33,752 nucleotides of DNA from positions 1 to 33,752 of the forward strand of contig CATJCJ010000307.1 of assembly GCA_949738935.1 (NCBI GenBank), given 5' to 3'. The stretch comes from an uncultured Eubacteriales bacterium (lineage in GTDB: Bacteria > Bacillota > Clostridia > Lachnospirales > CAG-274). This document shows, in pieces, positions 16,253 to 32,527 of this stretch. Positions within the stretch are counted from its first letter, which is position 1. Each line of letters starts with the position of its first letter. The notes below the pieces were generated by a model. The model did no database searches. It saw only the letters and a list, made by a program, of their open reading frames with translations, and was not told the DNA's origin. Position numbers and translations under genes: made by a program.

Positions 16253-16344
16253 CATTTTATTTAAATTTTTCACAGAAATTTAAGAAGCTTTAAAAAATTA
16301 AAAATTATATATACGTAATTAAGAACCTGTCTAAAATCTAAAAA

Positions 16345-16450
16345 AGCCTGTCTAAAAACAAAATATACACAAAAAATCAGCGAAAATAAAATTATTTTGG
16401 AGCGTAATGATTTTATTTTTTTGGATATTTTAACAGTTTTTAGACAGACT
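16345..16450. repeat. 106-bp nested inverted repeat (MITE-like or structured RNA)
   Basis: Outer arms of 15 bases at 16345-16359 and 16436-16450 match at 14 of 15 positions as an inverted repeat (AGYCTGTCTAAAAAC). Inner arms AAAATAAAAT (16383-16392) and ATTTTATTTT (16410-16419) are perfect, around a 17-base loop. The segments between also pair in part (AAAATAT blocks). A direct partial copy of the outer arm, CCTGTCTAAAA, sits at 16326-16336. The element fills most of the 305-base gap between mcp and pyrH and could stop mcp transcription, although no long T-run follows on the minus strand. No coding sequence lies in it. Confidence 0.75.
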
Positions 16451-16503
16451 CTAAAGGAATTCTTTTTAAATGTTATATGGTTTGCGAAGAATCCATTTTG
16501 GAC

Positions 16504-32225: not shown

Positions 32226-32260
32226 AGCTTTCTTATAGTCAATGCGCTTGAAAAAGAACA

Positions 32261-32270
32261 AAAGGAGGTG
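32261..32270 (+). promoter_or_regulatory. Orphan strong ribosome binding site
   Basis: AAAGGAGGTG is an almost perfect anti-SD match 36 bases after the topB stop, yet no start codon with an open frame follows at a useful distance. The best frames are under 12 codons. It may be the remnant of a gene lost when the palindrome downstream arose, or chance. Confidence 0.4.
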
Positions 32271-32310
32271 AAAGTAAATTTTAGTCTCTAACTTGTTTGT
32301 TTTTTATTAG

Positions 32311-32476
32311 ATTTCTTTCGAAACTTTATTATTGATACAAATATTGTCTGAAAAAAATATTTAATTCAATGCTTTTTAACGCTTTCGGCGTTTAAAAAAC
32401 AAAACGCCTTTCACTAAAACATTGAATCAAATATTTTTTTGCTGGATTGGCATAATTTTGCGGTTTCGAAAGAAGT
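32311..32476. repeat. 166-bp nested palindrome between topB and thiD
   Basis: Outer arms ATTTCTTTCGAAAC (32311-32324) and GTTTCGAAAGAAGT (32463-32476) match at 13 of 14 positions. A second pair, 32351-32371 and 32420-32440, matches at 20 of 21 positions and its right arm ends in seven T, so it can terminate topB transcripts. Inside are two mutually exclusive small hairpins: TTTTTAACGC with GCGTTTAAAAA, and GGCGTTT (32387-32393) with AAACGCC (32402-32408). It fills most of the 302-base gap. No coding sequence is seen, and no THI-box. Confidence 0.8.
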
Positions 32477-32527
32477 CTGTTGCTTTGCTCATTTATTGAC
32501 GATATTATTATTGGAGGGTGATTTATT

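Follow-up and report, generated by a model that had tools for sequence, protein, structure and literature searches.

The nested palindrome between topB and thiD is almost certainly a MITE. Dispersed copies, TIRs, target duplications, empty sites and an insertion sequence (IS) with matching ends are all found, bearing out the original prediction's suggestion of a MITE-type insertion. It represents a new family within an established class of elements, apparently chimeric in make-up and conserved in its interior. We consider the full account, in which this is a chimeric MITE copy with IS5-type ends and an IS630-type interior, to be very probable, although its chimeric history is less certain than its identity as a MITE. 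This settles the nature of the palindrome and cautions against interpreting it as a regulator of thiamine genes. The element probably sits between topB and thiD by chance, and no special role there is implied.

A dispersed element between topB and thiD

The palindrome lies in a window of 33,752 nt, the whole stretch of DNA analysed, on contig C307 of a 4.8-Mb genome assembled in 885 contigs. Sequence inspection confirms that the nested palindrome, previously placed at 32311-32476, exists between the two reading frames and that both arm pairs are present. By aligning dispersed copies with unrelated flanks, we set its ends 2 bp further out on each side, giving an element of 170 bp (32309-32478). 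The outer arms (32309-32324 and 32463-32478) are 16 nt long and complementary at 15 of 16 positions, and the inner arms (32351-32375 and 32416-32440) are 25 nt long and complementary at 23 of 25 (92%). The seven T reported at the end of the large inner stem are present at 32434-32440. Its folding is much stronger than that of shuffled sequence on both strands, with z-scores of -6.3 (plus) and -7.7 (minus) and none of 200 shuffled sequences folding as well in either case. The element begins 84 bp past the stop codon of topB, carries no transposase gene and is followed by thiD and a thiE-like gene. Its features, in window coordinates, are:

32306-32308, unstranded: left copy of the target site, ATT, from the sequence and the ATT/AAT rule given by 58 copies and two empty sites
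32309-32478, plus: complete MITE copy, 170 bp, delimited by alignment of dispersed copies
32309-32324, plus: left TIR AGATTTCTTTCGAAAC, one change from the family consensus AGACTTCTTTCGAAAC
32325-32350, plus: left spacer, the least conserved part of the element (mean column identity 0.72)
32339-32345, plus: direct repeat AAATATT, left copy, at which the 80-bp deletion forms are joined
32351-32371, plus: large inner stem, left arm (folding and covariation)
32378-32392, plus: hairpin H1 (AACGC/GCGTT) of the original prediction; can form, no covariation support
32387-32408, plus: apical hairpin H2, GGCGTTT-AAAAAACA-AAACGCC, supported by covariation
32420-32440, plus: large inner stem, right arm, ending in seven T (folding and covariation)
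32429-32435, plus: direct repeat AAATATT, right copy
32437-32454, minus: look-alike of an IS630-type transposon end (at most 3 mismatches), inside the IS5-type ends, in the right spacer
32463-32478, minus: right TIR, exact family consensus
32479-32481, unstranded: right copy of the target site, GTT, one change from ATT, from the sequence

Just 3' of topB, the sequence at 32234-32262 (TATAGTCAAT...) is like the start of a repeat that follows topB in a sister species (G001; TATAGTCAATCAATTTAAAAATTGAAC ... GTTGATTGACTATA), and is probably an older repeat remnant.

Copies of the element are dispersed throughout its own genome. Besides one perfect match, which is the topB-thiD copy itself, there are at least 39 others at 75-99% identity; these rank above weak reverse-strand self-matches, and a few of them belong to two other families, B and C. 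At least 40 core-bearing places were scored, many of them at contig ends. TIR-like sites number 95, versus 8 for a reversed control pattern. Aligned copies are alike between the family TIRs (AGACTTCTTTCGAAAC/GTTTCGAAAGAAGTCT), and their flanks are unrelated. Short forms of about 80 bp are also present, and sister species hold dozens more copies. A further copy lies just beyond the window end (G000:C307:34669-34838), from a subfamily whose AGACCTCTTGCGAAAT ends are those of an IS in a sister species. Copies are also found at the ends of contigs C390, C506, C86, C372, C234, C489, C481, C150 and C430. The repeat therefore probably helps to break the assembly into its 885 contigs, and the element probably contributes to fragmented genome assemblies across the genus.

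Across 97 genomes, the own genome included, five have clear full copies: all four from the genus and one from another genus of the family. The other 92 have no clear copy, and six of these gave weak, short matches only. Weak core-like matches in G022, G028 and G025 lack an enclosing hairpin, look unrelated and are probably coding, and were left out of the counts. The named records with copies are MAGs of uncultured Eubacteriaceae. A search of plasmids, phages and viral contigs matched no copy.

Target sites are consistent across the family. A perfect 3-bp target duplication flanks 47 of 58 distinct elements, and is ATT or AAT in all but one of these 47. We also identified two empty sites. At the first, one copy (L014: ...GTTCC-ATT-[element]-ATT-AGTTATAAAA...) is matched by a sister-species sequence with a single target (L244: ...GGTTCC-ATT-AGTTATAAAA...). 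At the second, a filled site (L013) is matched by an empty one in the same genome (L112), where GTT is single. The target of the topB-thiD copy is imperfect, with ATT at its left end and GTT at its right end. No empty site for this copy was found among the relatives compared, because topB and thiD are not adjacent in them.

Probable transposase partner and proposed chimeric make-up

An insertion sequence with matching ends is present in a sister species. This IS (G001:C85, 1086-1968; L120) is 883 bp long, with TIRs that agree at 16 of 16 positions (AGACCTCTTGCGAAAT) and an ATT target duplication. Its transposase is split over two overlapping frames. The profile search used these frames joined, and in this form they match the IS5-family model NF033581 (191 bits; cut-off 140) as well as PF13359, PF13613 and PF01609. 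One MITE copy in the own genome (L028) matches the IS exactly at both ends (16/16), and two copies cut by contig ends (L029 and L030) have the same right end. The consensus of the topB-thiD copy's family agrees with the IS ends at 13 of 16 positions and differs at 3. A search of the own assembly revealed no intact IS with such ends, although its 885 contigs are broken at repeats of this kind.

Within the IS5 family, the ISL2 group has a 3-bp ANT target. A mobilising transposase of the IS5 family, probably ISL2-group-like, would recognise the outer ends in trans and insert the element at ANT sites, duplicating 3 bp. The L120-type transposase, or a close relative, may have moved the topB-thiD copy.

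The interior of the element is shared with a second kind of MITE. Family B (AGACTTCCTCAGAAAC ends) is a close sister of the topB-thiD copy's family (family A) and has the same target. The same 90-bp core hairpin also occurs at about 30 further places within a second MITE family, C, whose members mostly measure 130-137 bp between GCAATTCC-type ends. Family C ends (CAGCAATTCC) are TA-flanked in most copies and are unrelated to those of family A. They are similar, not identical, to the ends of an IS630-type element in the own genome (G000:C479; TATAGCAATCCAA/TTGGATTGCTATA).

IS630-type ends are also found inside IS5-type ends. The right spacer of the topB-thiD element (32437-32454) resembles an IS630-type end, a short match with at most 3 mismatches. 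Two elements (L079 and L232) have A-type, that is IS5-type, ends around short MITEs with IS630-type ends, and in another (L062) IS5-type ends enclose one IS630-type end. Short matches are the basis for assigning the interior to IS630. It is reasonably likely that the topB-thiD element is a chimera, an IS5-type MITE that formed around one of IS630 type. Its interior would be the remains of an older IS630/Tc1-mariner-type MITE with the 90-bp structured hairpin, and the family would have arisen when this core-bearing MITE was captured inside IS5-type ends. With one structured core present in two transposon systems, it becomes possible to ask if the interiors of MITEs are under selection or simply inherited.

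Other nested and neighbouring elements were observed. An 80-bp short element of family A is inserted in a family C MITE (L047); therefore, the families nest in both directions. Larger inserts lie in or beside the core at a similar point in both families (L175, L176, L186, L094, L035 and L063), and some hold further GC-rich hairpins, e.g., GACGGCAAAGCCGGC. A repeat with ends AGAGCGTATCTGAAAACT ... AGTTTTCAGATACGCTCT is present in L057 and L056, and in L057 it sits inside an element copy. Elsewhere in the window, 16323-16451 is a probable second MITE type with ends GAACCTGTCTAAAATC ... GTTTTTAGACAGACTC; an 869-bp element from a sister species (L105) bears a transposase, GAACCTGTCTAAAATC ends and a TTA target duplication.

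Conservation and possible roles of the interior

Mean column identity across 39 long copies is 0.95-0.96 in the TIRs, 0.92-0.96 in the inner stem, 0.93 in the core and 0.72-0.78 in the spacers. Large-stem pairs also covary. RNAalifold recovered only the apical hairpin from a joint alignment of families A and C, missing the big stem because indels misalign it; we therefore counted pairs per family. The copies are related and non-independent, so that shuffles overstate the significance of the following counts: in family A, nine pairs of the large stem are changed on both sides and there are 35 double-change cells (shuffle means 4.25 and 12.8; neither value reached in 500 shuffles); in H2 (32387-32393/32402-32408; 85 sequences) there are 16 double-change cells (shuffle mean 3.6; 0/500), e.g., GGCATTT/AAATGCC and GGTGTTT/AAACACC; and in H1 (32378-32382/32388-32392) there is a single one (shuffle mean 0.9; reached by 315 of 500). 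The original prediction had placed two mutually exclusive hairpins at the centre of the palindrome. Both can be drawn; however, since only H2 and the large stem covary, the idea of competing hairpins fails, and the main fold of large stem plus H2 stands.

Instead of selection, this covariation could reflect hairpin-templated repair. Such templated (quasipalindrome) correction is known for long imperfect palindromes, and the arms here are simple AT-rich sequence. Were the inner stem to covary only by this route, both stem and core would be functionless, which is compatible with the chimeric MITE account. However, H2 double changes recur across different backgrounds, and conservation extends to the unpaired sequence on either side of H2. 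We give such repair, as the sole source of covariation, appreciable weight but less than an even chance.

Short forms of about 80 bp have the same ends without the core. In three subfamilies, their junction lies exactly at the two AAATATT direct repeats that flank the hairpin; in other short forms, it lies at AATATT within the stem. These forms would be explained by deletion, with slippage between AATATT repeats skipping the hairpin; alternatively, long forms could have gained the core at AATATT. The target duplications of short forms are good, suggesting that movement does not require the core.

It is unlikely, in our judgement, that the 90-bp core is an independent module, that is, a self-mobile hairpin or RNA cargo present in both IS5- and IS630-type MITEs. 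Such a core would function as a structured RNA (or as single-stranded DNA), be selected for itself and spread within MITEs that depend on two unrelated transposase systems. Consistent with this, the same core and stem occur in families with unrelated ends, the core is conserved as highly as the TIRs, coreless forms of several subfamilies are joined exactly at AATATT, and the structure covaries. However, among the approximately 99 core places found, none is clearly outside a MITE, and one capture followed by deletion between short direct repeats fits the same data.

Co-option of the MITE copy as the topB terminator, with transcription stopping at the seven T of the large stem, is similarly improbable. 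The element does lie close behind topB with a stem that ends in seven T, and some known MITEs affect flanking transcripts (PMC10969869). However, a terminator consensus scan of the element returned no site, there being no GC-rich hairpin followed by an unpaired T tract; instead, the T tract pairs with the A tract of the stem. All 44 copies with enough flank sit between ORFs, although this absence of ORF overlap is partly by construction, because an insertion splits the ORF hit. Orientation relative to co-directional genes shows no bias in the 42 copies with both neighbours called: 17 are ++, 18 are -- and 7 lie in convergent or divergent gaps (2 of the 44 are undetermined). Furthermore, topB orthologues end without the element: in sister species, topB is followed by a different gene (G001 and G003) or by a different MITE remnant (G002).

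We attach almost no credence to a cis-acting two-state, riboswitch-like RNA preceding the thiamine genes: the centre can be drawn as two exclusive hairpins and thiD and the thiE-like gene lie downstream, but no Rfam family, the TPP riboswitch included, matched anywhere in the window at the gathering score, the same sequence lies beside many unrelated genes, thiD has other neighbours in sister species and no element upstream, and H1 does not covary. If the chimeric MITE were transcribed in an operon, its hairpin would probably serve only as a structured spacer with a passive role, or as a substrate for RNase III.

Comparison with known elements

We found no description of a MITE of this type in Clostridia in a literature search, and a 2024 review of prokaryotic MITEs (PMC10969869) does not mention nested or chimeric elements under those words. 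The ISL2 relatives ISCaa2 (916 bp) and ISCaa3 (914 bp) have two frames with a -1 frameshift (PMC3196728). The sister-species partner IS is similar, with a two-frame transposase, a length of about 0.9 kb and a match to NF033581, and the family shares the ANT target. The topB-thiD element differs in being a non-autonomous passenger with no transposase; assignment to the ISL2 subgroup is tentative.

RUP of Streptococcus pneumoniae is a MITE that was assigned to IS630-Spn1 by a common TIR and target site (PMC2229807). Like family C, it uses TA. However, one end type is described for RUP, whereas the topB-thiD element has IS5-type ends around an apparent IS630-type remnant.

The Correia/NEMIS elements, MITEs of Neisseria, occur in two size classes of 107 and 155 bp that differ by an internal segment (PMC2229807). 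They resemble the topB-thiD family as short intergenic elements with TIRs, two sizes set by an internal segment, and a long stem in transcripts. Their TIRs, target and hosts are different. Unlike Correia/NEMIS, the topB-thiD family has IS5-type ends, ANT targets and an internal covarying hairpin that is common to another MITE family.

Mosaic small non-autonomous elements, the TIMEs, have already been reported (PMC4133298). TIMEs are Tn3-derived, whereas the topB-thiD element appears to combine two unrelated IS types.
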